From Methanolobus vulcani (GTDB lineage: Archaea > Halobacteriota > Methanosarcinia > Methanosarcinales > Methanosarcinaceae): DNA of 64,000 bases. Below the pieces are notes generated by a model. It did no database searches, was not told where the DNA came from, and was given only the letters and a program-made list of their open reading frames with translations. Location: positions 1 to 64,000 of the forward strand of contig NZ_VIAQ01000008.1 of NCBI RefSeq assembly GCF_006546655.1, in the 5' to 3' direction. The position numbers and the translations under genes are program-made. The stretch's first letter is position 1, and every line of letters starts with the position of its first letter. This document shows positions 2,965-26,200 of the stretch, piece after piece.

Positions 2965-3858
2965 TTATTTTATATATGTATTCATATGTTTTTTATACAG
3001 TACATGTACTATTCCGTCAGCAAGACCCAGTTTTGGTACATGCATGTATTCAATGTCACCCCATTTCATAATGGAGTAATATATCTTAGAAGCAGGAACT
3101 ATAACATCAGCCCTGTCAGGCTTTAAACCAAGTTTTATTATCCTTTGCTCCAGGGTAAATCCTTTCAGGTATTTTTTGAGCTGCTGAATGTCATCCCTTA
3201 AAAGGAGTGTACCGTCTTTTCTACCGGACATTCTGTAAAGTTTATTTATGTTGCCGCCACTTCCAATGGCATAATCAGGTGTGTGTTCATTGGTGACTTT
3301 CTTAACCCATTTCTTCATTTCATTCCAGTCATCCTTTGTCACAATACCTTCAAGCATTCGAATGGTTCCAATATTGAATGACCTGTATGCAAAGACCTCT
3401 TTTCCCTTAAACAGGATAAGTTCAGTACTTCCACCGCCAACATCCACATGCAGGTAAGTTGAATCGCTGCTTCCGATAATTTTCTCAATTCTGTTGGAAT
3501 AGATTATTTTTGCTTCCTTCCTGCCGCTTATCACTTTCAGGTCAATGCCGCTTTTTTCCTTTATTTTGTCTATGATCTCGTCACTGTTATCTGCTTCCCG
3601 CATGGCTGAGGTGGCGCATGCCATGTAATCCAGTGGTTCATAGGCATCCATCAGGTATTTGAATCCCATCATGGTTTTTATGAGGCGTGCTTCTTTTTCC
3701 GGTGAGATATTATTGTGGATGAAAGCATCTTCACCAAGCCTGATTGGCATGCGTATAAACGATATCTTTTCAAAAACAGGCTCTATACCCTCAGAACCAA
3801 CCTTTGACAGAAGAAGCCTGACAGCATTTGAACCAACATCTATGGCGGCAAATTTCAT
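2965..3858 (-). CDS. ppx: Exopolyphosphatase, Ppx/GppA family (short form)
   Basis: A 297-residue ASKHA-fold phosphatase expected to release phosphate from polyphosphate ends. The N-terminal phosphate loop AAIDVGSNAVRLLLSK and the second loop HVDVGGGSTELILFKGK near residue 140 are family signatures. The protein stops after the two ASKHA domains and lacks the C-terminal HD-type domain of the roughly 500-residue bacterial PPX. A domain of that type occurs in this window fused to a CYTH domain (15916-17169). Its start overlaps the ppk1 stop by four bases (ATGA), so synthesis and degradation enzymes form one operon. A role in pppGpp hydrolysis is a less likely alternative. Confidence 0.88.
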   Translation of the reverse strand: MKFAAIDVGSNAVRLLLSKVGSEGIEPVFEKISFIRMPIRLGEDAFIHNNISPEKEARLIKTMMGFKYLMDAYEPLDYMACATSAMREADNSDEIIDKIKEKSGIDLKVISGRKEAKIIYSNRIEKIIGSSDSTYLHVDVGGGSTELILFKGKEVFAYRSFNIGTIRMLEGIVTKDDWNEMKKWVKKVTNEHTPDYAIGSGGNINKLYRMSGRKDGTLLLRDDIQQLKKYLKGFTLEQRIIKLGLKPDRADVIVPASKIYYSIMKWGDIEYMHVPKLGLADGIVHVLYKKHMNTYIK

Positions 3859-5927
3859 GAACTCTCCTCACTTTTCAGTTGCTTTTCAAGGAAAGCATAT
3901 ATGTCTTCCTGGGCACGGCAGGGTTTATGTTCATTTCTAACGTACTTGTTATTCTGGGTTTCGTTGATCATCCTGGCCTTTATATTGTCAGCGAACTGGA
4001 TATTCATATGCTCTCTTAATTCATTTTTCAAAGAAACATCATATATTGGTGTTGCTACTTCTACACGCTTGTCAAGATTTCTTACCATCCAGTCAGCAGA
4101 TGAGATGAAATATTTCTCTTCTTCATTGTTGCAGAAAATAAATATTCTGGAGTGCTCAAGATATTTGTCAACTATACTGATTACATCAATATTCTCACTT
4201 AGTCCTTCAACACCCGGAACAAGTGAACATATGCCTCTAATAACAAGCTTTATTTTGACACCTGCTTTACTGGCTTCATATAACTTGTTAATCATGTCAC
4301 TGTCCACAAGGCTGTTCATCTTGGCATGGATGTATGCAGGTTTACCTTCTTTTGCGTTCTCAATTTCATTATCAATGAGTTTTTCAAATTTTTTACGCAT
4401 TTGAAGTGGTGCAACAACAAGGTGTTCATAATCATAAATCTTGTAGTTATGCTCAAAGAAATCAAAGATTTTTTCAACCTCATGTGTGATGTCCTTATTT
4501 CTGGTCATCAACATGTGGTCACAGTAGAGTTTAGCAGTTGATTCATTGAAATTTCCGGTGCCTATGCAGGAATAGTGAACAGTATCTTCTCCTTCATTCC
4601 TGCTTATGTGGCAGAGTTTAGAATGCACTTTCAGACCAGGCACACCATCAATGATTCTTGCACCGGCATTTTCCAGTTTCTGTGTCCAGTAAATATTGGA
4701 TTCTTCATCAAAACGTGCCTGAAGTTCAATAACAACAGTAACGGATTTCCCGTTTTTGATTGCGTTTATGAGTGCATTGACAACATTTGAATTGCGTGCA
4801 ACCCTGTAAAGCGTGACTTTTATGCTTGTGACATTCGGGTCAATTGCAGCTTCTCTTAACAAATCTATGAAATAATCAAAAGATTGGTATGGATAGTGAA
4901 GAAGAATATCCTTTTCCCTGATAGCAGTAAGCATACTCTTATGACTTCTCAGGTCTTTATGTGGCAAAGGGTGCTTCTTTTCGTAATAGAATGATTCCGG
5001 TCCAATCTCCGGGAAACCCATGAAATCTTTTGCATTGTGATATTTACCACCTGGAACAAGGTTCTCGAAGTCCAGGATGTCCAGTCTTTTCAGAGTGAAA
5101 TCAAGAAGATAATAAGGCATTTCCCTGTCATACACAAAACGCACTGGCTGGCCCTTTTTCCTTTCTTCAAGACTCTCTGATACCTTTTCAAAGAAACTCT
5201 TGGTTACATCATCATCAATATCAAGTTCAGCATCCCTTGTGAGTTTTATAGTGTATGCACCTATGGAATCATAATCAAAGGTTGAGAATATATCATCAAG
5301 TCCGAAACGGATGATATCATCAAGCATGATCACACATTTACGCCCGTCTGAATCCGGAAGATTGACAAAACGGGGAAGTACGTCTGCAGGAACTTCTATC
5401 AATGCAAATTTCGAGCTTTGAGGATCCCATTTCTTTCTGACATCGATAACCAGGTAAATTACCTGGTTTTTAAGGTAAGGGAAATCCGGAATATCCTTCA
5501 GCATTACAGGGATAAGACGTGGCCTGACCTTTTCCTGGAAATAGATTTTCAGGAATGTTTTCTGGTTATCATCAAGCTGGGTTTCATCAACGATAAAAAT
5601 ATTGTGAGTTTCAAGCTCCTTTGTCACGCTTGTGAAAGTTTTATCGAATTCATCTCTCAGTTCAAGTACGGTATTGTGCACCTCTTTCATAACTTTCTTC
5701 GGTGATACACCTACCATTGCTTTTGATTTTACACCTGCATCTATCATTCTTTGCAGGGTACCGACTCTCACACTGAAGAATTCATCAAGATTGGATGAGA
5801 ATATTCCAAGGAATTTCAGACGTTCAAGTAAGGGGACACCGGGGTCCTTTGCTTCCTGTAACACTCTTGCGTTGAAAGAAAGCCAGCTGATTTCCCTGTT
5901 GACATATTCATTTACTTCATTTGACAT
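3855..5927 (-). CDS. ppk1: Polyphosphate kinase 1
   Basis: Reversible transfer of the ATP gamma-phosphate to polyphosphate. The N-terminal region VNREISWLSFNARVLQEA, the first catalytic histidine in KVHSKLCHISR (residue 435 from the chosen start), the IGTGNFNESTAKLYCD segment and the second histidine motif YLEHSRIFIF are all present, so the enzyme looks active. The frame stays open to 6044, but I choose the start at 5927 because the family begins at about this point, giving 690 residues; the extra upstream residues have no family similarity and lie in an AT-rich promoter-like stretch. It overlaps ppx by four bases and follows the CHAD gene by about 155 bases. Confidence 0.93.
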   Translation of the reverse strand: MSNEVNEYVNREISWLSFNARVLQEAKDPGVPLLERLKFLGIFSSNLDEFFSVRVGTLQRMIDAGVKSKAMVGVSPKKVMKEVHNTVLELRDEFDKTFTSVTKELETHNIFIVDETQLDDNQKTFLKIYFQEKVRPRLIPVMLKDIPDFPYLKNQVIYLVIDVRKKWDPQSSKFALIEVPADVLPRFVNLPDSDGRKCVIMLDDIIRFGLDDIFSTFDYDSIGAYTIKLTRDAELDIDDDVTKSFFEKVSESLEERKKGQPVRFVYDREMPYYLLDFTLKRLDILDFENLVPGGKYHNAKDFMGFPEIGPESFYYEKKHPLPHKDLRSHKSMLTAIREKDILLHYPYQSFDYFIDLLREAAIDPNVTSIKVTLYRVARNSNVVNALINAIKNGKSVTVVIELQARFDEESNIYWTQKLENAGARIIDGVPGLKVHSKLCHISRNEGEDTVHYSCIGTGNFNESTAKLYCDHMLMTRNKDITHEVEKIFDFFEHNYKIYDYEHLVVAPLQMRKKFEKLIDNEIENAKEGKPAYIHAKMNSLVDSDMINKLYEASKAGVKIKLVIRGICSLVPGVEGLSENIDVISIVDKYLEHSRIFIFCNNEEEKYFISSADWMVRNLDKRVEVATPIYDVSLKNELREHMNIQFADNIKARMINETQNNKYVRNEHKPCRAQEDIYAFLEKQLKSEESS

Positions 5928-6083
5928 AAAATTCATGTTTTTCAGTTTTGAAAACGTTAGAAAGCTGTTGTGTTTTGATAAAACAACAGTGATTCTATTA
6001 TATAACACTTCATACAGTTTCATATATAGTAGTATATAGCACAATATAGCTTACATAATCAATACAATTCAAGTGGCAAGCGG

Positions 6084-8003
6084 TCAGGAGTTATAAATTC
6101 CTGCAATTGCCTGTGAAAACCTTACGCTGAAATCAGGGTCAATAACCTTAGACCATGCATCCGGGAATGAATCCAGCAAGGATACAAGTTCCTTTTTCCT
6201 GTATTCAATATATGCATCAACTCCGGGATAGTCCCTGATACTGACAGAGTCCTTCTTTCCGTGTGTCTCTCCCCACACGCCATATCTCTCAAAGTTCTCA
6301 AGCATTTCAAGTGCAACCACAGTATCATGCATGTCACCAAGATTATCCTGAAGGCCTTTGAGGTCTTTTATAAGGCTCTTTGATTCAGAACCAAGAACTT
6401 CCTTGAAGAACTCAATTGTATAACGCAGTATTTTCACATCTATTCTCAGCTGGTGGTACTTTTCAAGGTACGGATCAATTGTTGTGTCGTCAGTAAGTAT
6501 ATCACCATATGCTCTCACAGTTGCAAGCTGGGAATAAAGGAGCAAAGGCAGTACATCTGCAACTCTGGCTGGTATAGGTTCGCCATTTTTCTTTGCAGCT
6601 TTCATCTTCCATGCTTTCTTTTTCAGCAGATAATCTGCAAAGTTCTTTTTGAATTTATTATAACGTGATTCATCAAGGTACACAAGCATATTGCCACGAT
6701 GCTTTGCTCTTTCAATGAGAATGGAATCTGTAAGAGGTTCAATTTCCATCACTCTCTCAGGTGGCTGTGCCGCAAGATAGTGATCGATCTTCTCAAGGAA
6801 TACATCCATGTCACGTACTGTTCCCAGTGTCCTTCTTATGGATTTTACGTCCTTGTAATAGGAAGACATCTCTTTCATATTGAGATAGTCTTCAAGAACC
6901 TCTACAACAGAACGCATTCTCATTGCAGCAACTCTCATATCATGGAGTTCTTCAATATCCCTGCCAATCTTCGTACCTCTCTCATGTTCGATCATCTGGC
7001 CAAAGTTGTACATGAGGACTTTGCGTGCAGCTTCACGCATGGTATCGTCAGATTTGATATCTGTCTTTTTAAGTGACCTGAATTCTGCATAAGGAACAAT
7101 AAAATCCTGTACATCAGCTGTTTCATTTGAAGAAAGCTCTTTTTCAGGCGAATATTCTGTTTTTTCGTCCTCTTTATCTTGAGTTTCTTCAATATCTTCA
7201 ATCTCTTTTTCAATTTCAGGTTCAATAAGCTCAGCTATCTCGGGGAATTGTGTTGTTTCAAGATACGTAGTTTCTTCTTGTTCATCGTTGACATTACATA
7301 TTTTTATGTCTTCGTCGCCGAATGCATCTATTGCAGTTTTAATTTCAGTAATGGAAATGGATTTTTCCTCATTGGGTTCCATAAACAGGGACTCCGGATG
7401 TTTTTCTTCTGAAGTGGTATTAATAAGGTAAGTATTTTCATTATCACTGGTGCCCGTAAGAAAAGCAGGCTCGTAGGTGCCAGATGTGATATTTGTCATT
7501 AGAATTCCTGCAAAGGTTGTAAGGACAGAACAATCATTGTGTTGCTTTTCAATAGGTTTAACATCATCTTTTTGCGGAGTAAGTTCCTGTTGTCTGGAAT
7601 CTCCCAGTGCCTGCAGGAAATAATTTACAAAGATATTGATGAGCAGCAGGAAAATACCAATTGAATATGCTACTATTGCATAACTGACCTTTGGATAGAC
7701 CCAGTTATCAGGGAAAGATGTCATGAAAACAAATAGTCCGATTGCGGATAATAACAGACCTGCAAGGAAAGAATAGTTTCGTGAAAGCTTCTGGCGTATT
7801 CCTGCGACATTGATTCCTGAAAGGATTAGAACCACACCAGTAGCAAGTAACATGCACACAACCAGAATGGTTTCTGTACCTGAACCACGGTTGAGCCTGC
7901 TAACGATGGCAAAAAGCAGTCCTGTCATGCATGACACCAGGCCTGCAAGAAAACCCAGTGATGCCGCTAAGGAGTATTTCTTTACAAATACATCCGATGA
8001 CAT
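6084..8003 (-). CDS. Membrane-anchored CHAD-domain protein
   Basis: A 639-residue protein in three parts. Residues about 12-130 hold four hydrophobic helices; about 140-315 is a highly acidic, disordered linker rich in Glu; about 318-630 is a CHAD domain with its paired histidine/basic helices, HDMRVAAMRMRS and LRIDVKILRYTIEFF. CHAD domains are established polyphosphate-binding modules, so this protein is likely to bring polyphosphate granules or chains to the cytoplasmic membrane. It lies directly upstream of ppk1-ppx on the same strand and downstream of the ferredoxin gene. The four-helix anchor plus acidic linker is an unusual setting; CHAD is more often alone or fused to CYTH. The tethering function is inferred. 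Confidence 0.85.
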   Translation of the reverse strand: MSSDVFVKKYSLAASLGFLAGLVSCMTGLLFAIVSRLNRGSGTETILVVCMLLATGVVLILSGINVAGIRQKLSRNYSFLAGLLLSAIGLFVFMTSFPDNWVYPKVSYAIVAYSIGIFLLLINIFVNYFLQALGDSRQQELTPQKDDVKPIEKQHNDCSVLTTFAGILMTNITSGTYEPAFLTGTSDNENTYLINTTSEEKHPESLFMEPNEEKSISITEIKTAIDAFGDEDIKICNVNDEQEETTYLETTQFPEIAELIEPEIEKEIEDIEETQDKEDEKTEYSPEKELSSNETADVQDFIVPYAEFRSLKKTDIKSDDTMREAARKVLMYNFGQMIEHERGTKIGRDIEELHDMRVAAMRMRSVVEVLEDYLNMKEMSSYYKDVKSIRRTLGTVRDMDVFLEKIDHYLAAQPPERVMEIEPLTDSILIERAKHRGNMLVYLDESRYNKFKKNFADYLLKKKAWKMKAAKKNGEPIPARVADVLPLLLYSQLATVRAYGDILTDDTTIDPYLEKYHQLRIDVKILRYTIEFFKEVLGSESKSLIKDLKGLQDNLGDMHDTVVALEMLENFERYGVWGETHGKKDSVSIRDYPGVDAYIEYRKKELVSLLDSFPDAWSKVIDPDFSVRFSQAIAGIYNS

Positions 8004-8068: not shown

Positions 8069-8413
8069 TTAAAGTTTAATTCGTTTCAGTTCTTTTATCG
8101 TTCCGCGAATAATCTCCTGTTCGCGTTTAAGTTGTCGCAGCTGACTCTTGATCAGACGCTTCTTTGCACGCTTATTTTTAGATTTTTCAAGTGAGTTTTT
8201 TGCGGATTTAAGATTTTCATAGATTTTGAATTTCACAACGTCTTTGTCTTTGAGTATTGCTTTGACAGGGCATATTTTGATGCATTTTCCACAATTAATG
8301 CATTTTCCTTCTTCGATCAAGGCTTTTCCTTTTGCCATGTAAATGGCATCCACAGGGCATTTTTTAATGCACTTTTTACATGACACACATTTAACTTTAT
8401 TAACCCATGGCAT
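8069..8413 (-). CDS. Ferredoxin with two [4Fe-4S] clusters and a basic tail
   Basis: A 114-residue protein with two CxxCxxCxxxCP cluster motifs (CVSCKKCIKKCP and CINCGKCIKICP) in the first 60 residues, the classic bacterial-type ferredoxin fold. The last 50 residues form a strongly basic helical tail (repeated Lys-Lys and Arg-Lys), uncommon in ferredoxins and suggestive of binding an anionic surface, RNA or polyphosphate (inference). A GAGG lies ten bases before the ATG. It is first in the minus-strand series leading to CHAD, ppk1 and ppx, 65 bases before the CHAD start, and it diverges from the MgtC-family gene. Its electron partner is not evident here. Confidence 0.85.
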   Translation of the reverse strand: MPWVNKVKCVSCKKCIKKCPVDAIYMAKGKALIEEGKCINCGKCIKICPVKAILKDKDVVKFKIYENLKSAKNSLEKSKNKRAKKRLIKSQLRQLKREQEIIRGTIKELKRIKL

Positions 8414-8523: not shown

Positions 8524-9840
8524 TTGAGCAGGCATCAGAATAACTTCTTCAGGAGGGATGATATTATAAGTATTCAACCGGGCATTGATCCGTTATATGC
8601 CACTATACTGGAAAAAATTGTACTTTCAATGATGATAGGCATACTTATCGGTCTTGAAAGGGAACACTGGCGTGCTGACAAGAAGATATTCGCTGGTGTC
8701 AGGACTTTTTCCATAACGTGTATTGCCGGTACTCTTGCAGCATTCCTGGTTGATTATATTGGCATGTGGATACTCATACTGACAACATTGCTGGTGGTAT
8801 TTGCCTCAGCTTCCCTGATTTACCTGGTCAATATCCTCAAGGGAAAATCAGGTCTTACAACAGCTATTGCGTTGTTCTGTACATACCTTTTGGGAATAAT
8901 CGTTGCCGAGGGTCTTTATCTAATAGCCATAGTTACAGGTTTGCTAATAACTTTCCTGCTTATTGAGAAAAAACCACTTCATTCATTTGCAGAACACCTC
9001 TCTGATGAAGATATTAGCAGTGCACTCAAATTCCTTGCAGTTGCTTTTGTATTGTATCCTATAATGCCTGAAGAACCGATCTTTGGAATAATAAATCTCA
9101 AGCAATCCATACTTATTGTTGTGCTTGTTTCTTTCATTAGTTTTGTCAGTTATGTCTCCCTGAAAAAAATGGGTCCCAAAGGAGGCATCCCCTACTCAGG
9201 TTTCTTTGGAGGTTTCATTAGCAGTGAAGCAACAGTTGCAGCCCTTGCAGGCCTGTCAAAAAAAGGTCCTTTGCTAAAAGATTCGGTTCACATCGGTTCT
9301 TTATTGTCGGTTGTATCCATGATTATCAGTAACACTATAATTGCACTGATAGCAGACCCAACAGCTCAGACAGCTATGATCATGGCTCCTCCTTTCATTA
9401 TAATGGGAATAGTGGCTCTTGCATTTGTGGCGATCAAATGGAAAAATACAATAAATCCTCAGGAGACGATCGAGATAGGGTCTCCTTTTGCTCTTGGTCC
9501 GGCATTTAAGTTCGGTGCTGTTTTTACAATTCTGCTCATTATTGCAAATTATGCAAATGTATATGGGGGAGCAGAAGGAACCTATATAACTGCACTGGGC
9601 GGTATAGTAAGTAGCTCTGCAGTTACTGCTTCCGTTGCAGCCCTTGCTTTTTCAGGTAATATCTCCATTCATACTGCCGGTATTACAGCTGTACTTGCAG
9701 GTCTTGTAAGCACTCTTAATAAGCCGCTATATATCAAAGTCAGCGGTTCACCGGAGTTTTTCAGGACAGCAATATTATCTTTCATAGTTATTGCACTGGC
9801 CGGAGCAGCCACCTTGCTTGTATGGAGTTTCTATATCTGA
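8524..9840 (+). CDS. MgtC/SapB-DUF4010 family membrane protein
   Basis: A polytopic protein of up to 438 residues. The N-terminal part (IGILIGLEREH, GVRTFSITCIAGTLAAFL) is the MgtC/SapB domain and the rest, about 12 hydrophobic segments in all, matches the DUF4010 extension. MgtC proteins are linked to Mg2+ and phosphate homeostasis, which suits a location beside polyphosphate genes, but transport activity is not established. The coordinates use a TTG start at 8524 without a Shine-Dalgarno. A strong AGGAGG at 8551-8556 lies inside that reading and points to an AUU at 8563 as the real start, which also gives the usual family length. The ATG at 8558 is out of frame and ends after three codons. 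Confidence 0.85.
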   Translation: MSRHQNNFFRRDDIISIQPGIDPLYATILEKIVLSMMIGILIGLEREHWRADKKIFAGVRTFSITCIAGTLAAFLVDYIGMWILILTTLLVVFASASLIYLVNILKGKSGLTTAIALFCTYLLGIIVAEGLYLIAIVTGLLITFLLIEKKPLHSFAEHLSDEDISSALKFLAVAFVLYPIMPEEPIFGIINLKQSILIVVLVSFISFVSYVSLKKMGPKGGIPYSGFFGGFISSEATVAALAGLSKKGPLLKDSVHIGSLLSVVSMIISNTIIALIADPTAQTAMIMAPPFIIMGIVALAFVAIKWKNTINPQETIEIGSPFALGPAFKFGAVFTILLIIANYANVYGGAEGTYITALGGIVSSSAVTASVAALAFSGNISIHTAGITAVLAGLVSTLNKPLYIKVSGSPEFFRTAILSFIVIALAGAATLLVWSFYI

Positions 9841-9912
9841 TATATATAAATGAAAATAATTTCTCTCAATATAACTATATATTCAAAGATAATTGATAAT
9901 GAAGATGATAAT

Positions 9913-11415
9913 ATGCTTGAAAATGTAGATCTTACCAAAACTCTTCCAAAGGATGAATATAAAATGCTAATGGAAGACCTGAAAATACGGATGGGGGAAC
10001 TACAGCGAAAAGCGTGGAAAATGGATATTCCAATTATTATTGTTTTTGAGGGATGGCATGCTTCAGGTATGTCTGAGATCATCAACAGGTTTCTTCTTAC
10101 ATTAAATCCAATGGGCTTTAACCTGCACACCACCGGAAGACCCTGTTACCAGGAAGAACAGAAGCCTCTGTTGTGGCGTTTCTGGACAAAGATTCCGGAA
10201 AAAGGCAGAATGGTAATTTTTGACAGAAGCTGGTATCGCAGAATTATCATTGAACATAACAAGAAGGGTAAAACCAATAAGAATATGCAAAAATGCCTTT
10301 CCAATCTTAACTATTTTGAAAGACAGCTCACAGACGGCGGTTACCTTGTGATAAAACTGTTCCTGCACATAAGCAAGGAAGAACAGGATAAAAGATATCA
10401 GGAAATGAAGGATATAGGAATCCCCCAGTTTATTATTGAAGAGGAAGAAAGAGATTACCTGGATGGATATGATAAATATCTGCCACTAATTGAGGGGATC
10501 CTTGAAAAAACAGATCGCTCTTTTGCACCCTGGACAATTGTAGAAGCAAATGACAGGGATTTTGCAACCGTCAAAGTACTGGCAAAGGTCATAGAATCCA
10601 TAGAATACAAGATACAGGATATTGAAAACAAGGCATTGGTGGAACAAAACCATAAGAATAACGATTGTATTATTCCCAATATCGACTCTTCCATTCTGGA
10701 AAAGATCGATCTTGATAAGAGTCTCACTTATGAGGAGTACAAGAAAGAAAAGAAAAAATGCCAGAAAAAACTGAAAACTCTACAGTATGACCTTTTTAGA
10801 AACAGGATATCACTTATTGTTGTATTTGAAGGCTGGGATGCCTCCGGTAAGGGCGGTAGTATCAGGCGACTTGTTAAGGAACTAAATCCAAGACTTTACC
10901 AGGTAACTCCTGTAGGTGTGCCCACTCCTGATGAACTTCGACGTCATTACCTGTGGAGATTCTACAACCAGATCCCTGAGGCTGGTCACATTGGAATATA
11001 TGACCGAAGCTGGTACGGAAGAGTGCTGGTTGAGAGAGTTGAAGATCTCTGTAATTTTGAGGAATGGAAGCGTGCCTACAGGGAGATCAATGAATTTGAA
11101 GAAACTCTTTCCAATTACGGTACTATAATTGTCAAATTTTGGATGCACATTGATAAGGATGAGCAGCTTAAAAGGTTTAAACAGCGTGAAGATACAGAAT
11201 ATAAGCAATGGAAGATAACTCCTGACGATTGGCGCAATCGTGAGAAATGGGATCTCTATCTTGATGCTGCCGATGAGATGCTGAAAAAAACCAGTACTAC
11301 ATGGGCGCCCTGGACTATTGTGGAGTCCAATGACAAGTACTATTCCCGAATCAAAATTATGAACACGGTCATTGACCGTATTGAAAATACGCTAAGGGAA
11401 CGCGGGCTTCAGTAA
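9913..11415 (+). CDS. Two-domain PPK2 / polyphosphate:AMP phosphotransferase
   Basis: Tandem PPK2 domains in 500 residues. The C-terminal domain has an intact Walker A (FEGWDASGKGGSIRRL) and the conserved DRSWYGRVLVERV. The N-terminal domain has a decayed Walker A (FEGWHASGMSEIINRF, catalytic Lys replaced by Met) but keeps DRSWYRR. That is the class II PPK2 layout, whose known members make ADP from AMP using polyphosphate. Nucleotide preference cannot be read from sequence. The frame is open from an ATG at 9850; I choose 9913 (MLENVDLTKTL) because the family starts there, although no strong ribosome site is seen at either. It follows the MgtC-family gene by under 80 bases. Confidence 0.88.
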   Translation: MLENVDLTKTLPKDEYKMLMEDLKIRMGELQRKAWKMDIPIIIVFEGWHASGMSEIINRFLLTLNPMGFNLHTTGRPCYQEEQKPLLWRFWTKIPEKGRMVIFDRSWYRRIIIEHNKKGKTNKNMQKCLSNLNYFERQLTDGGYLVIKLFLHISKEEQDKRYQEMKDIGIPQFIIEEEERDYLDGYDKYLPLIEGILEKTDRSFAPWTIVEANDRDFATVKVLAKVIESIEYKIQDIENKALVEQNHKNNDCIIPNIDSSILEKIDLDKSLTYEEYKKEKKKCQKKLKTLQYDLFRNRISLIVVFEGWDASGKGGSIRRLVKELNPRLYQVTPVGVPTPDELRRHYLWRFYNQIPEAGHIGIYDRSWYGRVLVERVEDLCNFEEWKRAYREINEFEETLSNYGTIIVKFWMHIDKDEQLKRFKQREDTEYKQWKITPDDWRNREKWDLYLDAADEMLKKTSTTWAPWTIVESNDKYYSRIKIMNTVIDRIENTLRERGLQ

Positions 11416-11928: not shown

Positions 11929-14900
11929 ATGAAAGATAAAACCAATTCCGAAGATTTCATATTTAATACAAAAACAGTTGGCACCCAGTTATTCAACAAT
12001 GATTATGCAGTTATGTTACTTGTTGATCCTGAAAATCTGCACATTATTGATGCCAACAATGCTGCTTCCACTTATTACGGCTGGTCATCTGAAGAACTTT
12101 TACAGAAGAAAATGAGTCAAATAGATATACTGTCTGAAGAAGAGCTTAAAGCTGAAATTTCTAAAGCAAAAAAAGGACTTAAAAATCATTTTACTTTCAG
12201 GCATCAACTGCGTAATCATGAGATTCACGATGTTGAGATTTGTGCAATTCCGATAAATACTGACGAAAAAACCTTGCTATGCTTTATAGTTCAGGATGTA
12301 ACTAAAACAAAACAGTTAGAAGAAGAACTTAACTTTGAGGAAGCCAGGTTAAGAAGCATCCATGAGATATTGGTATCAAAACACGACTCTATACAGGATT
12401 TCCTTGATTTTACTCTCAATGAAGCTATAAAACTAACGAATAGTAAAATTGGTTACATCTATTATTATAATGAAAAAAGAGAACAGTTCATTTTAAACAC
12501 ATGGTCTCAAGACGTTATGAAGAAATGTGAGATCACAGAACCTCAGACGATATATGATCTTAAGGAAACAGGTATTTGGGGCGAAGCGGTCAGGCAACGT
12601 AAAACGATAATTATAAATGATTTTCATGCTCCAAACCCTTTGAAAAAAGGCTATCCACAAGGCCATGTCAAACTTCATAAGTTCATGACTGTGCCAATTT
12701 TTAAGAACAACAAGATCGTTGCTGTGATCGGTGTTGCCAACAAAGAATCAAATTATAATGATAGCGATTCTCTGCAGCTTACTTTACTTATGGATTCCGT
12801 ATGGAACATCATAGGAAAGATAGGAGCTGAGAATGCACTAAAAGAAAGTGAAATGAAATTCAGAGGACTTTTTGAAAACGATATTAGTGGTGTGGGAATC
12901 CACAAAATGGTTTTTAATGATAATGGTGACCCAATTGATTATATCTTCCTTGATGCAAACGAAGCATTCGGAAAACATACCGGACTGAAAGTAACCGATA
13001 TCATAGAAAAACGTGTTACTGAAGTTCTTCCGGGTATTGAGGAAACTTCTTTGATAGAAACATATGGAAATGTCGTACTAACTGGAAAACCTGTTATTTT
13101 TGAAACATATTCACCACAATTGAATAAGCACTATAGTGTTAGTGCGCATAAAGTTGACAATGATTCTTTTGCTGCTGTATTCCAGGACATTACCGAGCGT
13201 AAACAAGCAGAAAATGCTATTATTGAGAGAGAGGAGCAATACAGGACTCTTTTCACAGAGGCGCCGATCTCAATAATAATACATGACAGGATAAGCGGAG
13301 AGATTATAGATGCCAATCCTAAAACCTGCGAAATGTATGGTTTTTCTTCACTTGAGGAGCTAAAAACAAATGATTTCTGGATCGAGCCACCATATTCTTT
13401 TGACGATGCACTGAGGTGGATACATAAAGCTGCAGATGAAGGAACTCAGGAATTTGAATGGTTCAACAGAAAGGTAACAGGAGAACCTTTTTGGGAGCAT
13501 GTTCGATTGAGCCCTGTGACTATCAATGGTGTGGAAAGGGTCATGGCGACAACAATAGATATAACTGAACGTAAAAATGCAGAGATCGCACTAAAGAATA
13601 GTGAGGGACAACTGCGTACTTTAATAGATTCTATTCCTGATCTTGTATGGCTAAAAGATGTTAATGGAGTCTATCTTTCGTGCAATTATAAATTTGAACG
13701 CTTCTTTGGAGCAAAGGAAGAAGAGATATTTGGAAAAACGGATTATGACTTTGTTGATAAAGAGCTTGCAGATTTCTTCAGACAAAAGGATATTGAAGCA
13801 TTAGAAGCTGGCCGACCTTCTGTTAATGAGGAATTGATCACCTATGCGGATGACGGTCACGAAGAAAATCTGGAAACCATTAAAAGCCCTATGTATGATT
13901 CCAGTGGAAAACTCATAGGGGTGCTTGGTGTTGGCAGGGACATTTCTGAAAGGAAAAAAGCTGAAAAGGATATTTCAGAAGAACGTAAACGTCTGTCTAA
14001 CATCATTGAAGGTACAAATGTCGGGACCTGGGAATGGAATATACAGACCGGTGAAACTTTATTCAATGACCGATGGGCCGAAATAATTGGTTATACTCTG
14101 GATGAACTGACTTCACTTGATATTCAAACATGGAGGAAACTAGTCCATCCTCTGGATATGAAAAGAGCAGATATCCTTCTTAACAAACATTTTGCAGGTG
14201 TTTTAGAATACTATGAACACGAAGCACGCATACGACACAAGAATGGGGATTGGATATGGGTACATGACCGTGGTAAGGTTATAGAGTGGGATGAAGATAA
14301 CAATCCGCTTCTCATGTATGGAACTCATTCAGACATTACAGAGAAAAAGAGAGCTGAAAAGAAAATCGAAGAAGAACGTACTAGAAGGAACATCTTCGTT
14401 GAACAATCAAATGATGGAATTGTTGTTGTTAATGACAAAGGTGAGGTTGTTGAGGCAAACCAGAAATATGCGAATATGCTGGGCTATTCTATGGATGAAG
14501 TTCTCCAATTACACGTATGGGACTGGGAATACATTTCATCACCTGAAGAAATTCTTGAGATAATAAACGATATTGATGAGTCCGGATTTACATTTGAGAC
14601 ATGCCACCGTCGTAAAAATGGGGCTTTGATCGATGTGGAAGTTAGTTCGAACGGAGCGATTATCGACGGTCAGAAACTGGCTTTTTGTGTTTGCAGGGAC
14701 ATTACTGACAGAAAGAGAGCGGAGGAAATGTTGAGGCAGGCTCAACAGAAGTACAGGCAGGCATATAAGTTATTGCAGGAAGTTATTGAAAGTCCAAGGG
14801 ATGTTGTCATATTCGCCCTTGATAAAAATTATCATTACATTACTTTTAATGAAAATCATCAACATATAATGGAACATATATGGGGGGCCAGAATAGAAAT

Positions 14901-15873
14901 TGGTTCCTGTATGCTGGATTACATCAAACATCCAGAAGACGTGGAAAAGGCAAAAGCTAACTTTGATAGAGTACTTGCAGGAGAAGCCTTCACAACTGTA
15001 GAAGACTATGGTGATTCCTTAGCCGAAAGAAAATGGTATGAGAATGTTTATAGTCCCCTTGAAGATGATGAAGGAAATATTATCGGGCTTACGTTGTTCA
15101 TAACTGACATAACTGAAAGAAAGCAGGCTGAAATGGCTCTTCTTCAAGCCAAAGCCCTTGCTGAAGAATCCAATAAAATAAAATCAGAATTCATTGCAAA
15201 TATGAGCCATGAACTCCGCACACCTCTTAATTCAGTTATTGGTTTCTCACAGGTACTAAATGATAAAATATTCGGGGAGTTGAATGACAAACAAACAGAG
15301 TATGTTGGCAATATAGTAAAAAGTGGAAATCATCTGTTAGAATTGATCAATGATATCCTTGATATTTCAAAAATAGAATCTGGCAGTATGGACTATGATC
15401 CCGAAACAATTGATCTTTATTTAGAGATATATGAGGTCATATCATTGATGGCTCCTCTTTTCAAAGAGAAAGAGCATGATTTTGAAGTCAATATTGAATA
15501 TGAGAAACTGGAAATCAATGCTGATAAGTTAAAGATCAAACAGATAATTTTTAATCTTCTTAGCAATGCTATCAAATTCACACCTGAAAAAGGTAAAGTG
15601 CAGCTCAAATCTAAAATATTGGATGGCAATGTTCAGATATCCATATGTGATAATGGCATAGGTATTCCTCCAGACAAGCAAAAAGTTATATTTGATCCAT
15701 TTAAACAGGTTAGTTCATTCATAAACCGCAGTCATGGTGGAACAGGGTTAGGGCTTGCAATTGTCAAACATTATATAGAGATGCATTCAGGAGAGATCCA
15801 TGTTGAAAGCAATGTTGGCGAGGGTAGTACTTTTACTATTACAATACCAATAAATCAGATTAATGATCTGTAA
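11929..15873 (+). CDS. Multi-PAS/GAF sensor histidine kinase, cytoplasmic
   Basis: A 1314-residue kinase without membrane segments or signal peptide. Order: PAS (about 20-125), GAF (about 150-295), six more PAS or PAS-PAC units ending near 421, 546, 672, 803, 925 and 1062 (each closed by a DITERK-type motif), HisKA with phospho-acceptor His1094 in [11 protein letters not shown], and an ATPase domain with [18 protein letters not shown] and GGTGLGLAI. There is no receiver domain, so it must signal to a separate partner; none is adjacent. Its GAF and last PAS closely resemble those of the hybrid kinase at 46054-49695. A GAGGGA lies just before the ATG. Ligands are unknown. It interrupts the polyphosphate neighbourhood and is flanked by a 15-bp direct repeat. 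Confidence 0.93.
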
Positions 15874-15908: not shown

Positions 15909-15923
15909 GCGGGCTTCAGTAAT
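15909..15923 (+). repeat. 15-bp direct repeat, right copy
   Basis: Identical to 11402-11416. It overlaps the last codons and stop of the minus-strand CYTH-HD gene. Confidence 0.7.
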
Positions 15924-17169
15924 CTTCCCTGAAATATATGTCCCTATCAAAAAGAAGGCGCCAGAGGTCCGCTTTTGTGTCTGCTCTGTCTGCATCAATG
16001 CTGGCTCCTTTTCCGGTTATTTTTACGATGATATCTTCCTTTGTGAGATCGATCTCAGCAATTGTACTTCCCATTCTGCTGTAATCCAAACCATCAGCCA
16101 TTCTTAGTATGGCTGCAAGTTTGAGCATATCATCCTGCATCTGTGAGGGAAGTGATAGGAATTCCTTTTTCATGGATAGTTTATCCAGTTTTCTCCGGTC
16201 TATTCTTTTCTTATGCAGGAATGTCATCCATGGAAGAAAAGCATAGAGTGGATATGGAAGTTCATCAGGGCATGTCTCTGAGAGAATATCCCTGCCAACC
16301 TTATGATGTTCCTTTGCATCGGTCATGACTCCGATATCGTGAACAATCGAGCTAATTCTTAGAGTATGCAGCAATTCATTGCGTAAATGATGTATGCTTT
16401 TCAGTTCATTAAAAAGCCTGTAGGAATTTTCTGCAACTCTCCTTGCATGTTCTCTCTCAATACCATATTCCTCTATCATTTCTTTGAGCGGAGAAATATT
16501 GACAGTTCTATTTTCACTGTCTATATTGTAGTTCAATATGTTTGCATTCTTCCTTACATTTTCCATAAAAAGTTCAAGGCCATTATCGAACTTTGAACTA
16601 CTTCCAGGAGTAAGTCCCTCATCATCCCTGAGATATTCAGCTATTCTGTTCAGTTCTGCTTCAGTGCCTTCACCTGTAAGTTCCACTTCCAGTTCAAGAT
16701 AACTTTTCTTGCTTTTCTCGCAGGTAAGAACCACATCGTCAAAGCTCATCTCTGCAATCTCTCTCTGGTCAATGCTCAGTGGGATATCTGTCCTTTTGTG
16801 CGTTACAGTAAACAAAGGAAACAGTTCTCCGGAGCTAATGATTGAAAGTACTCTTTTTTTGAGAATACAATTATCCCAATCTTTTACAGGCAGCTTCTCA
16901 GTAAGTGTGAACTCAACTTCTTCCCTCATATGTATAAGAGAAGTTGATGTTGAAAGTGATTTTAGTGTATAGGTTACTTTCTCCCCTTTCTCACGGCAGC
17001 GAAATGAAAAACCTGAAGCGTAAATAGCCATATCCATTGTATCAAGATAGGTATCAGTGAATTCTTTATCTACTGACTTGCCGGTGCTGAATCCTGCAAC
17101 AGATGTGATACCTTTGAGTTTTTCAAAGATATCTCGTTCAGATATGAGGAACTTAGCTTCAATTTCCAT
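15916..17169 (-). CDS. CYTH domain fused to PPX-type HD domain
   Basis: A 417-residue two-domain protein. Residues 1-195 are a CYTH (triphosphate tunnel) domain starting with the ExExK signature MEIEAKF and alternating acidic/basic strands. Residues about 215-417 resemble the C-terminal HD-type domain of Ppx/GppA enzymes: SSIVHDIGVMTDAKEHHKVG carries the HD pair, followed by KLAAILRMADGLDYSR. CYTH enzymes bind tripolyphosphate, polyphosphate or nucleoside triphosphates; the HD domain in PPX helps bind long chains. The PPX in this window lacks exactly this domain. It ends convergently with the multi-PAS kinase. A polyphosphate or triphosphate hydrolase or binding role is inferred; adenylate cyclase activity (CyaB-like) is less likely. 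Confidence 0.82.
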   Translation of the reverse strand: MEIEAKFLISERDIFEKLKGITSVAGFSTGKSVDKEFTDTYLDTMDMAIYASGFSFRCREKGEKVTYTLKSLSTSTSLIHMREEVEFTLTEKLPVKDWDNCILKKRVLSIISSGELFPLFTVTHKRTDIPLSIDQREIAEMSFDDVVLTCEKSKKSYLELEVELTGEGTEAELNRIAEYLRDDEGLTPGSSSKFDNGLELFMENVRKNANILNYNIDSENRTVNISPLKEMIEEYGIEREHARRVAENSYRLFNELKSIHHLRNELLHTLRISSIVHDIGVMTDAKEHHKVGRDILSETCPDELPYPLYAFLPWMTFLHKKRIDRRKLDKLSMKKEFLSLPSQMQDDMLKLAAILRMADGLDYSRMGSTIAEIDLTKEDIIVKITGKGASIDADRADTKADLWRLLFDRDIYFREDY

Positions 17170-18954: not shown

Positions 18955-21900
18955 TTATACGAGGATATGTTCCTCGGTCTCTATTTCTTCCCTTTTCTCT
19001 GGGCTGGCAGTATTCCCGCCTTTCATGGAAACGGATTCTAAAATAAATTTATCAACTACAGCTTTCATATCACCTGCAAGACTTGAAAGGTCTTCTGCTG
19101 ATCTGGAAAGTTCCTGCATTGTTGCGGTCTGCTGTTCGACAGCTGCGGATGCTTCTTGGGTTCCTGCAGCAGATTCTTCTGATATGGCACTTACTTCTTC
19201 AACAGAGGAAGTGACTTCTTCAATTGAAGCAGACTGCTCCTGAGCTGCTGCTGCAATATCCTGTACCATATGTGCGATGGTGTTTCCGGATTCGACTACA
19301 TTCTGGATAATGGCAGCAGCTTCTTGAAGGGCAGTTGCTCCGAGCTCAACTTCTTCTGAACCCTGCTGCATTGATGTAACCGCATTCTGTGTTCCTTCCT
19401 GGATCTCACCAATAAGGCCTGATATCTGTTTAGCTGCATTACCTGAATCTTCAGCAAGCTTCCTTACTTCATCTGCAACCACAGCGAATCCACGACCATG
19501 TTCTCCTGCACGTGCTGCTTCAATAGCTGCGTTCAGTGCAAGAAGGTTGGTCTGGTCTGCAATATTGGTAATAAGGCTCACGATTTCACCAATCTGTTTG
19601 GATTTACCGTCAAGCTGCATAATTACATTTGATGATTCACCAGTAGCTTCTTTGATAGAATCCATCTTCATAACAAGATCTTTAGTAGTTAGACCAAGGG
19701 TGTTAATCAGCTCATTTGAATCCTTTGCAGTCTCGGCTGCTTTCTGTGAGTTAGTTGCAACTTCCTGCACTGTCATGGTCATATCAACCATTGCACGTGA
19801 GACTTCTTCAGTCTTTGATGCCTGGCTCTGTGCTCCTTTTGATATTTCAGATACAGTGTCAGATATCTGATACGAGGCAGATGTCATCTCTTCAACTGAT
19901 GCTGACATCTCTTCGGATGTAGATGCAACATTTCTGGAGCTGTCAAGGACAATAGAAACAACATTATTCAATGACTTTCTTGCATTTTCGATACCATCTG
20001 TCAGCTTCTTGATGTCATTTTCAGCAACAATGGTAAGTGGTTTTGAGAGATCATTATTTGAAATTGCATCAAGAACGGCACTTGATTCTTCAATCAGACC
20101 CTGCAGCTTATCACCAAATGTATTAAGAGCATCAGCAAAGTTCTTGAAATCACCGTTAGCTTCTAATTCAAACCTTGCATTGAGAAGGCCCTGACTGTAT
20201 TCATCGACTATGCGCATTGCTTCATTTACAGGCGCTGCCAGTGCATCAAATGCCACATTCACAGTGCTGATCGCATCACTGAAACGTCCTTCAAAACGAG
20301 AATAATCTGCTCTGTAAGCCAGATCTCCAGCTTCTGCTGCATTACCGAGTTTTATGAACTCATCAACTATGCCTTCTATGTTGCTCATCATTGTGATATA
20401 ACATGGAATGAGTTCATCATTATCTGAGCGTTTTCCGATTTTCTTGAGATTCTCAAGGTCATTAAGATCACCCACTGCTATTTTCTTATTTATATCCATT
20501 ACGTGGGTGATTCTGTCAAGAATACCGTTTGTAGCTGATGCCACTTCTGCATAGATTCCCTGGTAATTTCCTTCAACTTTTCTTGTATGGTCATTGTTAA
20601 CCATGACCTGTAGGACTTCATTTGCTTCTACAAGACCGCCAAGACCATCAATACAATCATTGATATTATTCTTGAGCATATTGAAGTCTCCCTGATATTC
20701 CTCTGTGATCTTTTCAGGAATTTCTCCTCTGGATATCTGTGCAACATAATCTGCAGCTACGTTCAATGGATCAATGACTGCATCAAGTGTATCATTAACT
20801 CCCTGTACAATTATCTGGTAATCTCCCAGATGCTTGGACGCATCTGCTCTTGTATCCAGGCTTCCTTCTACTGCAGCGTTTGAAAGCATTTCCACGTCTT
20901 CAATCATTTCTCCGACTGCTGCCGTTACTTTCTGCAGGTTGTCATTAATCTGTACGAAGTTTGATCTTGACTCTACAGTGTTCTCATTACCAGTTTCTAC
21001 TGTAAGGTCAAGTGCAAGGTTTCCTTGTGCCAGTAAGTTGAGGTTTGCTGATAGGCGGTCTACTTCCACCTTAGTATATTCATTGTTCTGCAGTATGGCT
21101 GTGAGGTCAGTTACTGTCTCAACATAACCGATCGGTTCACCTTTTCTGTTCTTCAGGAAAGCAGTATCCTGTTTACATTTAAGATCATACCAGTCGAAAT
21201 AACTCTCTTTAACTCCTTTTTGTAACTTTTTAATACCACAGTTTTCTGTATTACAGATATTGGCACCTGCACTGCTACATGGCATTCCTTTTGCCTGGCA
21301 TCTTTCAGTGACAACTCCCTGATTAACCATCAGCTCTTCAAATGCCTTGTTCAGGAATACCCAGTTCATATCATTATCTATTACATGTATTGGGAATGGT
21401 ACTGCATCAATAATAGCTTCATACCAGTCAGTCTTATCAACAACAGTATCAAGGGTTCTGTTTATTCCATTTACAACAGTGCGGAAGTCTCCTTGATGTC
21501 TGGTTTCATCAGCACGTACATCAAGCTGATCATTGATGGCAGCCTGTGCCAGCATCTCAGTGTCTTCTATCAAAGCATTTACAGCATCAATGCACTGGTT
21601 GAGGTTGTTTTTGATCTCATTGAAGTCACCATTATATTCTTCTGTTATCTTTTCAGGAATATCTCCTTTTGAAATGCGGTCAATGTATTCTGCATTCACA
21701 TTAAGTGGGGCGACCAGGGCATCAAATGCATCGTTTACAGTAACAATAGCTTCCTGGAAAAGACCATCAAATTCCGAAGCATCCACTCTGTAATCCAGAG
21801 TTCCGGCTTCAGCAGCCTGCCCAAGTTCAATGAATTCATCTGCCATTCCTTTAACAGTTTCCATGAGCCTGATGGTGTATGGCAATAACTTGTCGTTCTC

Positions 21901-22710
21901 TGAACGCTTTCCAGCCTGTTTGTATCTTGGAAGGTCGCTGAAGTCACCTTTTGCCATATACTCAAATGTACGCTGGATATTCAGTAGTCTGTTGCGAACC
22001 TCATTGACTGCGTATGCGTTGTCTTTGAAAATTCCATCGTATTCTCCTTCAACTCCAGTTTCAAAGTCATTGCCAGCCATTTTGAGCAGAACATCTGTGC
22101 TTTCGTTCAATGGTTTTGCCATAGAGTCAAGAGTATTGTTCAGGTTCTCTATGATGGTCCTGAATTTTCCGCCATGTCTGGTGGCATCTGCACGGATATC
22201 AATGTTGCCTTCTGATCCGGCTTTTGCCAGCATGTCTGAATCTTCGATAAGAGCATTGATAGCATCTACGCAAAGGTTGAGATTGTCTTTAAGCTCGTTG
22301 TAACTGCCTTTGAATTCTTTTGTGATTTTAGGAGGAATATCTCCGTTAGAAAGGCGGGTTACATACTTTGATGCAGCCATAAATGGAGTTACAATTGCAT
22401 CGGTCATTTTGTTGATTCCTGCTGCAAGATCTCTGAATTCTCCTTCAAAGTCTTCAGGTTTTATTCTCACGTCAAGTTGACCTTCAACTGTTGCATTCAC
22501 CATCTGGTTTACTTGCTTTGATAGTTCCTGTTGCTGTTCAGCTTCATTTTTCCATCCTGCAGCTTTTTCCAGAAAAGCGTTCAATGCTTCTGTCATCTCT
22601 TTCTCGGTGCCTGTTGACTCAGCGCCCAGTCTAATGTCTGACCTGCCTTCTTCAAAAGAGTCCAGAACACCGATAATTTCACTATATAACTTGTTGTTTT
22701 TCCCTAACAT
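18955..22710 (-). CDS. Long soluble chemoreceptor with repeated HAMP-like modules
   Basis: A 1251-residue methyl-accepting chemotaxis protein without membrane segments, so a cytoplasmic sensor. The N-terminal two thirds is a chain of about 90-residue HAMP-like modules (motif [17 protein letters not shown], then [16 protein letters not shown], then LDxRAD), interrupted near residues 430-535 by a PAS domain with clustered cysteines ([14 protein letters not shown]). The signalling domain follows, with the conserved hairpin tip [20 protein letters not shown] near 1050. A GGGTGA precedes the ATG, and MLGKNNKL matches the proposed start of the other receptor. It forms an operon with cheW. The ligand is unknown; the Cys-PAS may bind metal or sense redox (inference). 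Confidence 0.92.
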
Positions 22711-22919
22711 GTTTTCACCCTATAAAAAGTCGAATTGCATGTGTTTAACTTTTACACATTCACTTCGTATTATGCCAACTACTAGTTCTGTATAATTATA
22801 ATTATGCAGATTTAAAGATGAATATAATTATATAAAAACATATCTTTAAAAACTATATTATTGCACAAATATATTCATTGGAATTTGCGGATAGTGTTTT
22901 TATTATTATAATACTTATT

Positions 22920-23161
22920 CTAAAATAAATCACGATATCCAGAATTTATAATACTCAATTGTTCATCTTTTCCTAATATCTTTCTGGAATCTATCAATAG
23001 AAGAAGACAATCGTCAAGTTTACCTACGCAGGCACATGGAGATTGTAGAATTCTGAACGGTTCAGGGATATGTATTATTTCCTTTACGTTCATAATGTCC
23101 ATTCCAAATTCTTCACCCTGTAAATTGAAAAACAACTACCAGAAGCGTATCTCTGGTAGTT
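22920..23161 (-). pseudogene. Decayed CheW remnant
   Basis: On the minus strand CheW's opening can be read as TLLVVVFQ in one frame, continuing only after a frameshift as LQGEEFGMDIMNVKEIIHIP in another; the second frame has a stop just upstream. After ILQSP the middle of CheW, including FVEGVINLRG and the following hundred-odd residues, is missing, and the text resumes at VGKLDDCLLLLIDSRKILG to the end. A frameshift plus an internal deletion make a pseudogene, though the 71-codon frame 22920-23135 remains open. It stands in the same place relative to the receptor at 23208-27053 as intact cheW does to the other receptor. Confidence 0.8.
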
Positions 23162-23207
23162 GTAGATATATTTGAAAACGTACCCTTCGATTCAAAAATC
23201 TTTCTTA

Positions 23208-26200
23208 TCAGACCAATGCGGCGTTCTTTAGGGAGGATTCATCGCTTTCTGTATTTTCAGACTCAGTATCGTTATCCATTCCGGATTCTGTACTAACTGT
23301 TTTGAACCGGTTGACCACTCTTTTCATGTCTTTTGCAATATCCGATAACTCATCAGCAGAGTTTGCAAGTTCATGCATTGAAGATGTTTGTTCCTGAACG
23401 GCAGCTGCTGTTTCTTCTGTTCCTGCTGCTGTTTCTTCTGAAATTGCTGCGACCTCTTCTACGGACGATGCCACCTGTTCAATGGCAGCAGACTGCTCTT
23501 CAGCAGCTGCAGCGATGTCCTCAACCATCCTGGTGATGTCATTCACAGCAGTGATCACCTGCTCGATTTCTTTAACACCCTCTCCTAATGATTCGGCACC
23601 CCTTGTAACTTCTGTGGTACCCATTTCCATAGAGGCAACTGCTTCAGAAGTACCATTCTGGATCTCATGAATAAGGTCTGCAATCTGTTTTGCAGCATTT
23701 CCTGAATCTTCTGCAAGTTTTCGGACCTCATCCGCCACAACAGCAAATCCACGACCATGTTCTCCTGCACGTGCTGCTTCAATAGCTGCATTCAGGGCAA
23801 GCAGGTTTGTCTGGTCAGCGATGTTTGTGATGAGATTGACGATCTCGCCGATACGGTTTGATTTTTCTTCCAGGTTATTGATTACAGTTGCAGAACCGGA
23901 TACTGCATCTTTAATGCCGTCCATCATTATGAGAAGTTCGTTGCTGGTCCTTCCAAGTTCGGTCATTCTCTGGTTGGATTCGCGGGCATGGCTTGCAACA
24001 TTCTGTGAATTAGATGCAACATCCTGAATACTCTGTGTCATGTGCTGCATGGTACGTGATACTTCTTCTGTTTTGACAGACTGGTCCTGTGATCCGCGTG
24101 ATATCTCTTCCACTGTTCCAGCAACTTCATTTGCTGATGAGTTTAGCTGTGTGGTCGCTGCTGACATATTTTCTGCAGTGGTCACAACTAGCTCTGCAAC
24201 GTTCATTACGTGTGAAACAACATCGTTGAGTGACATACGTGCACTTTCAATACCATCGGTAAGCTTTTCGAACTCTCCAACGGATTCTACAGAAATCCCT
24301 CTTGTAAGATTGTCCTTTGATATCTCCGACAAAACCTCACTGGTATCATTAATTAGTTTCTGGATGTTATCCCCAAATGAGTTCAGGGTATTTGCCAGTT
24401 CTTCAAAGTCACCGTTCATCTCCATTGTAATTCTGGCATCAAGATCGCCTTTTGTATATGAATCCAGCACATCACAACTTATGTTCAATGGAGTAATAAT
24501 GGCATCCAGTGTATTGTTAAAGCCGGCAACTATCCTGGCAAAATCGCCTCCATGCTTTGAATCATCAGCACGAACTGAAAGTTGTCCATTTACGCCCGCT
24601 TGTGCCAGTAATTGAGAATCCTTTACGAGGAGATTAATTGCATCAATGCAGGTATTGATATTGTTCTTAATCTCATTGAAGTCTCCATAATAAGTGTCAG
24701 TGATATAAGCAGGGATCTCACCTTTGGATATTCTGTCAATGTATTCAGCCGCAACATTCAGAGGACTGATGACAGCATCAAGGGTATTATTTACACCTTC
24801 AACAATGGCACGGAAATCTCCCTGATGCTTAGTTTCATCAGCACGGATATCGAGTCTACCTTCGACAGCGGCTTCCGCCAGCATATTCGCATCGCTGATC
24901 ATGGCATTGATGGCATCGATACATTGGTTAAGGTTGTCCTTGATTTCACAGAAATCACCATTACACTCATCAGTAATCTTTTCAGGAATATCTCCGTGAG
25001 CTATTCTGTCAACATATTCTGCAGCAACATTCAGTGGACCAATGACAGCATCAAGAGTATTATTTACACCTTCAACAATGGCACGGTAGTCACCACCGTG
25101 TCTGGATGCATTGGCGCGGGTATCGAGTCTACCTTCGATAGCGGCTTCTGCAAGCATGTTTGCATCGCAAACAAGTTCATTGACTGCATCAATACATTGG
25201 TTAAGGTTGTTCTTGATTTCATTGAAATCTCCATAGTATTCATCTGTGATCTTTTCAGGTATGTCGCCCTTTGAGATACGATCAATATACTCTGCTGCTA
25301 CATTTAATGGGCCAATAAAAGAGTCAAGAGTTTCGTTCACAGCATTGACAATGTCCCTTGGGTTGCCTTCAAACTGGTTTATGTCGGCACGTGCATCAAG
25401 TCTGCCGTTAACCGCTGCATCTGCAAGTTTTAGTACTTCCTTTGTGACATTGACTTCAGAGGTCATATCCATTACATATTCAAGACCACCGATGATCTCT
25501 CCCTCACTGTTTTTTAAAGGAGTTGCAGTATAGCGAATTGGTAAATCTCCTGATAGAAGATGTGCTACCGTATCTGCTGAAGAAACTGATCCATTATCCA
25601 TGGCTCTGGCAACACGACAGTTTTCTGTTTGGCAGTGTGGGGTGTTGAATAGTTCGTAACATTTCATTCCATTGCATTCAACAGCAGTTTTTCCTACTGC
25701 ATTGGCCCCGGCAGGATTCATAAATGTGACATTGAACTCTTTGTCCACTGCCATTACCGGAGCTGGAATCCTATTAAGAAGTTCTACTTTAGAACTGGAA
25801 TCTTCAAGAGCATTCTTAACTATTGTCTGGTCCATAAATATTTCAAGGGAACCTATGATCATTCCTTCTCTGTTCTTCAGTGGAACACCGCTGCAAGTAA
25901 TATGTACGTCTTTTCCAAGGTTTGCAACGGCTTCTCCATGTTCTGTTAAATCTGAGATCATAGAGCGTGTACATACGCAGTTGTCGGTCTTGCATACATT
26001 AGTATTATAATGGTCGTAGCATTTAGTGCCAACCATGGAGCCAGCTGTGAGGTTCACTGTTTCTGCTGCTTTTGTGTTGACATAATTAACGTTGTAATCA
26101 CGGTCAATAATCATGAATGGGACCGGGATACTATCTATATGGCCCACGAGTGTCCCTACAATATGGTTCATACCTTCTACAAGTCTGGCATATTCACCAT

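Follow-up and report, generated by a model that had tools for sequence, protein, structure and literature searches.

The polyphosphate (polyP) gene cluster of Methanolobus vulcani encodes a protein in which an N-terminal CYTH domain is followed by an HD domain of the type found in exopolyphosphatase (PPX), while the PPX of the same cluster ends without one. This arrangement raises the question of whether the HD domain was moved from PPX onto the CYTH protein, as the first-pass annotation proposed, or whether it has a history and a function of its own. We address this question in the window, the 64,000-nucleotide stretch of contig NZ_VIAQ01000008.1 that was analysed, and across related archaeal genomes.

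Domain organization of the CYTH-HD protein

A single open reading frame holds both modules, in agreement with the proposed joining of a PPX III-IV-like module to CYTH: Pfam places CYTH at residues 2-193 (51.3 bits, cut-off 23.2) and Ppx-GppA_III (PF21447) at residues 229-371 (43.7 bits, cut-off 27.3). Pfam returns no match in this protein to PF02541, which covers ASKHA domains I-II and the Ppx-GppA active site, and the protein is not a whole PPX/GppA phosphatase. There is likewise no Pfam match to CHAD (PF05235), and a separate CHAD protein is encoded at 6084-8003. Across the whole genome, the Pfam profile finds its sole Ppx-GppA_III domain here, and the CYTH-HD protein is one of two CYTH proteins, the other being 173 residues long and encoded elsewhere. 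Of 25 genomes of the same genus, 21 encode full-length CYTH-HD, at 50-87% identity and without internal stops; a second genus (g24) adds two full-length copies and a third that is cut by a contig end. Because the fusion is kept at full length in both genera, we reject an assembly or frameshift artefact.

Table 1 Features of the polyphosphate cluster in the window
Feature	Position	Strand	Basis
Short two-domain exopolyphosphatase (PPX), 297 aa, HD absent	2965..3858	minus	Pfam PF02541, clade, 7epq match
Polyphosphate kinase 1 (PPK1)	3855..6044	minus	Pfam
Protein with CHAD domain and predicted membrane N terminus	6084..8003	minus	Pfam CHAD 1.6e-50; membrane part inferred from sequence
MgtC/DUF4010 membrane protein of polyP cluster	8524..9840	plus	Pfam; conserved neighbour
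Double-domain PPK2	9850..11415	plus	Pfam; synteny; convergent with CYTH-HD in most relatives
CYTH-HD protein, 417 aa	15916..17169	minus	ATG-start ORF; Pfam; full-length orthologues; AlphaFold
CYTH/triphosphate tunnel domain, residues 1-193	16591..17169	minus	Pfam, conserved columns, YgiF alignment, Foldseek
Ppx-GppA_III-type HD domain, residues 229-371	16057..16485	minus	Pfam, motif table, Foldseek to PPX domain III
Domain IV-like beta/alpha tail, residues 369-415	15925..16065	minus	DSSP of models, Foldseek, conserved columns

The AlphaFold model of the full protein, built with 20 orthologues, has a mean pLDDT of 92.4 and a pTM of 0.88, and the C-terminal 212 residues modelled alone reach a pLDDT of 92.3 and a pTM of 0.91. 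YgiF is the top Foldseek match of the whole model, followed by PPX from Y. pestis and other organisms and many CYTH/TTM structures; the CYTH part matches YgiF (5a60), SaTTM and ThTPase. With the C-terminal 212 residues as query, all 24 matches at E<=1e-3 are PPX/GppA proteins, aligned over about 190-200 columns that cover both domain III and domain IV, including 198 columns of the Y. pestis PPX fragment 3rf0. These best 24 matches uphold the earlier assignment of the C terminus to the fold of PPX domains III-IV. An unrelated HD phosphohydrolase was sought among the Foldseek matches as a counter-example, and such proteins start only at E values of at least 0.028; the weaker matches are to tRNA-processing, HD-superfamily and HD-GYP proteins.

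The predicted metal ligands of the HD domain are H241, H277-D278, H288, H289, H319 and D359, and H241, H277-D278 and D359 correspond to the canonical H...HD...D set of metal-dependent HD phosphohydrolases. In the domain IV-like tail, K399 and D401 are invariant.

The CYTH domain begins at its ExExK motif and carries E2xE4xK6, D39xY41, S55xR57xR59, K70, R126, D144, E159/E161/E163 and K193 within residues 1-193. Published motif rules assign CYTH proteins to substrate classes (PMC8233210), and the features listed for inorganic triphosphatases are all found here: ExExK, DxY, the small residue S55 before RxR, the first Arg and ExE, with the HF motif absent. The motifs point to a triphosphatase rather than an adenylyl cyclase or ThTPase, both of which we reject by the same rules. 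They also favour the tripolyphosphatase half of an earlier proposal of a tripolyphosphatase or sensor. The S55 position is Tyr or Phe, a ThTPase-like state by the SaTTM rules, in one g24 orthologue and in the CYTH-HD-CHAD proteins of Methanosarcina, so the substrate may differ in these proteins. Tripolyphosphate is a poor substrate for E. coli PPX (PMC3440374), and a dedicated enzyme beside PPX therefore makes sense.

The HD domain forms a lineage apart from PPX

We compared 94 HD domains in a motif table that includes 58 intact non-PPX domains (solo, CYTH-HD, CHAD-linked and phosphoesterase-linked) and 23 from archaeal PPX. H241, H277-D278, H288, H319, D359 and K399 are kept in 58 of 58 intact non-PPX domains, and H289 has one exception among them. 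The archaeal PPX domains carry Glu at 359 in 23 of 23 cases and Lys at 399 in none of the 23. E. coli PPX has Q at 241, HE at 277-278 and V at 359, and has lost most metal ligands, whereas the HD domain of CYTH-HD keeps all of them.

In the HD tree, PPX domains lie on one side of a branch and all other HD domains on the opposite side (92/77, recovered in 89% of bootstraps); the support for this branch is moderate and some solo HD domains are long branches. The domains of CYTH-HD proteins and the solo HD domains of Methanosarcina form one clade (99/99), with those of CYTH-HD-CHAD proteins as its sister (100/98). Relocation would group the CYTH-HD domains with those of the long PPXs of the Methanosarcinaceae, and constraining the tree in this way costs 147 log units (p-AU 6e-55). 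From these alignments we infer that the HD domain of CYTH-HD is a lineage apart from the PPX domains; its relocation from PPX is rejected by the tree, by diagnostic residues 359 and 399 and by the AU test.

Methanosarcina-like genera (g17, g21 and g12) hold three HD domains, in a stand-alone protein, a CYTH-HD-CHAD protein and a full-length PPX. The stand-alone protein (about 215-250 residues) is 42-48% identical to the HD domain of CYTH-HD and keeps all ligands; unlike that domain it is unfused, and polyP genes are not adjacent to it at the locus examined. The CYTH-HD-CHAD protein (about 870-935 residues), whose gene lies beside long PPX and PPK1, resembles CYTH-HD in its CYTH (33% identity) and HD (about 25%) domains, but it has a fused CHAD domain and a linker of about 100 residues after CYTH, and its HD domain has lost most metal ligands (L070:3896-6571, L071:3199-5784, L072:4452-7064, L080:4755-7406 and others). 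When archaeal class IV-like CYTHs were included, the CYTH tree showed long-branch joins; rebuilt without those sequences, it places a single origin of the fusion before the split of Methanolobus and g24 in 32% of bootstraps. The CHAD tree used for tracing the CYTH-HD-CHAD split is noisy at depth.

A solo HD gene of a Methanosarcina-like genome (G082:C1:3218615-3219238, minus strand; locus L148, G082:C1:3217600-3220200) contains an in-frame TAG, reading GRMP*ELQ against MPEDLQ in relatives, which may be a nonsense mutation or possibly a pyrrolysine codon.

Across the phylum, 108 of 393 genomes match an HD profile. Twenty loci were chosen by the HD match alone, and in 19 of these the HD gene is fused or lies beside PPK1, CHAD or PPX. 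The arrangements include PPK1-CHAD-HD-PPX operons and fusions of CHAD-HD (L143, L144), CHAD-phosphoesterase-HD (L131-L133) and phosphoesterase-HD (L127-L130 and L081), where the calcineurin-type phosphoesterase of L127-L133 is assigned by sequence likeness to L081 and Pfam was run on L081 and L082. These proteins share the HD family and ligand set of CYTH-HD and differ from it in their fusion partners, with HD identity of about 17-32% where measured. Among the control genomes, M. jannaschii has a Ppx-GppA_III domain and no Ppx-GppA match, and several organisms show the reverse, so either domain often occurs without the other.

The short PPX and its gene neighbourhood

The only Ppx-GppA phosphatase found by Pfam in the genome is the 297-residue protein at 2965-3858. 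It matches PF02541 and lacks Ppx-GppA_III, a two-domain form as first described, and can be aligned over its full length with the two-domain structure 7epq. It is 48-95% identical across g1, g24, g18 and g20 and about 30% identical to long PPXs, and none of the genomes searched holds both a short and a long PPX. By sequence, short PPXs from four genera make up a separate clade, and the short form is not a trimmed long PPX. Two-domain PPXs are known from A. aeolicus and, as Ppx2, from lactobacilli (PMC12248826), and V. cholerae GppA still functions after loss of domains III-IV (PMC7552824). All 34 short PPX genes in the four genera are intact and near constant in length, and about 230 bases separate the gene in the window from the next one downstream, on which grounds we reject a truncated pseudogene.

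Nine genomes of three genera have a short PPX and no intact HD domain: four of g18, G072 of g24 and four incomplete genomes of g20. The four g18 genomes are 99% complete and encode PPK1 but no HD, and therefore the short PPX does not need one; PPK2 and CHAD also lie beside the short PPX at the two g18 loci that were read. CYTH-HD is thus not essential to a module of PPK1, PPX, PPK2 and CHAD. Within the Methanolobus sample, CYTH-HD and the short PPX are co-present or co-absent, and the four genomes without CYTH-HD lack PPX and PPK1 as well; this co-loss includes PPK1 and therefore points to a whole polyP module gained or lost together. In many other archaea, the same HD family occurs alongside full-length PPX. 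The suggestion that CYTH-HD complements the short PPX in trans is accordingly unlikely as a general rule. These distributions argue against obligate complementation, and CYTH-HD may interact with the short PPX facultatively.

At the 20 loci read, CYTH-HD neighbours PPK2 (or an inserted kinase) as well as PPK1/CHAD/PPX. Some Methanolobus species have a 1314-residue multi-PAS histidine kinase (window 11929-15873) between PPK2 and CYTH-HD, and in others these two genes are convergent, their ends overlapping by a few bases. Directly downstream of the short PPX lies an MreB/actin-like protein (window 1694-2731; Pfam MreB 2.9e-15) together with a coiled-coil protein (27-1697). The two are kept beside ppx in most Methanolobus loci, which suggests that the polyP module has a cytoskeletal partner. 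Between CHAD and MgtC, a ferredoxin-like protein with a basic tail (8069-8413) is conserved. Two chemoreceptor-like proteins of 1251 and 1312 residues with many repeated segments lie beside CheW and CheR (18955-27146).

Proposed function and alternatives

With moderate confidence, we favour the view that, in the polyP module of Methanolobus, CYTH-HD hydrolyses short-chain polyphosphate, possibly with two active sites. Homology and synteny suggest as the simplest reading a YgiF-like short-chain polyphosphatase with a PPX III-IV-type module in the place of CHAD. YgiF, the CYTH-CHAD inorganic triphosphatase of E. coli, likewise starts with a CYTH tunnel that carries the same catalytic residues and continues into a largely helical C-terminal module, but that of CYTH-HD is the PPX III-IV/HD type, and CHAD is a separate protein in the Methanolobus cluster. 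The module shares its fold over about 198 residues with PPX III-IV (E. coli 1u6z/2flo, Y. pestis 3rf0); unlike PPX, CYTH-HD has no ASKHA domains, carries the full HD ligand set and falls in a separate clade with D359 and K399.

The CYTH tunnel would likely cleave tripolyphosphate and the short chains left by exopolyphosphatase. It is plausible, at slightly better than even odds, that the HD/domain-IV module would grip polyP and feed the tunnel, acting as CHAD does in YgiF, whose activity CHAD enhances (PMC6537752). In E. coli PPX, the C-terminal domain binds polyP but has no enzymatic activity, and an E. coli PPX-based specific polyP probe is in use (PMC2096623); polyP binding by the HD domain of CYTH-HD, which is about 16% identical to that of E. 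coli PPX, would be an analogy from that protein. The chances are about even that the HD module also has a metal-dependent phosphohydrolase activity of its own, unlike the E. coli PPX HD, the retention of all HD metal ligands being what makes such activity probable. In the literature searched, we found no biochemistry on the CYTH-HD protein or the stand-alone HD family.

The HD domain might instead be a scaffold for polyP binding and dimerisation, its metal site kept for stability, with CYTH alone catalytic. The inactive polyP-binding domain of E. coli PPX fits such a role, as do the dimer formation thought to be mediated by PPX domain III (PMC7552824) and the ligand-poor HD that Methanosarcina CYTH-HD-CHAD retains next to CYTH. 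We consider this possible but doubtful, as a pure scaffold would not usually keep its ligands strictly conserved in 58 HD domains, whether solo or linked to CYTH, CHAD or a phosphoesterase.

The HD substrate could also lie outside polyP metabolism, as the Methanosarcina solo HD gene examined lies away from polyP genes. The HD domain might then be a nucleotide phosphohydrolase of the dNTPase, Ap4A or pppGpp type, with CYTH removing its polyphosphate product. Such an intact HD motif is what an active enzyme would have, and HD triphosphohydrolases release tripolyphosphate, a CYTH substrate. The dGTP reaction of such an enzyme is cited in PMC3440374. This is an unlikely reading: Foldseek gives PPX III-IV, not SAMHD1/Dgt or YqeK, and it is polyP proteins that the family is fused to or shares operons with across the phylum.

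That PPX lost its C-terminal HD to a CYTH protein, the two together restoring a full PPX in trans, draws on the shared PPX III-IV fold and on co-occurrence within Methanolobus, but is highly improbable given the split HD tree and rejected constraint, E359 and the missing K399 of PPX domains, the g18 short PPX without any HD, the HD family's coexistence with long PPX, the known class of two-domain PPXs and a co-loss that takes in the whole module.

Implications for archaeal polyphosphate turnover

Among these readings we retain CYTH-HD as a probable short-chain polyphosphate hydrolase. PMC8233210, citing earlier work, lists fusions that join CYTH to HD hydrolase and to exopolyphosphatase domains, and Methanosarcina CYTH-HD-CHAD also exists, so the combination is more familiar than the first-pass annotation held. 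In the part of the literature that was searched, we found neither a stand-alone HD family of archaeal polyP operons nor its exchange of partners described; CYTH-HD fusions are already known, and the identity of the HD family and its partner swapping appear to be new.

Discussions of exopolyphosphatase usually treat its HD-like domain III as structural or polyP-binding. We tentatively suggest, as a less than even prospect, that archaeal polyP operons encode a catalytically active, uncharacterised family of HD hydrolases with the PPX III-IV fold that are not PPX, would act on polyP or its short products and are joined variously to CHAD, a calcineurin-type phosphoesterase or CYTH. If so, PPX domain III would be related to a working enzyme but inactivated, and the protein of Methanolobus would be a two-site polyphosphatase. 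Archaeal Ppx-GppA_III matches should be read with caution, as they often do not mark PPX. Across methanogens, a related HD family that retains every metal ligand is conserved next to PPK1, CHAD and PPX and is joined to polyP proteins of three kinds. This pattern suggests that archaeal polyphosphate turnover includes an enzymatic step that has been overlooked, and a small protein would allow a direct test.
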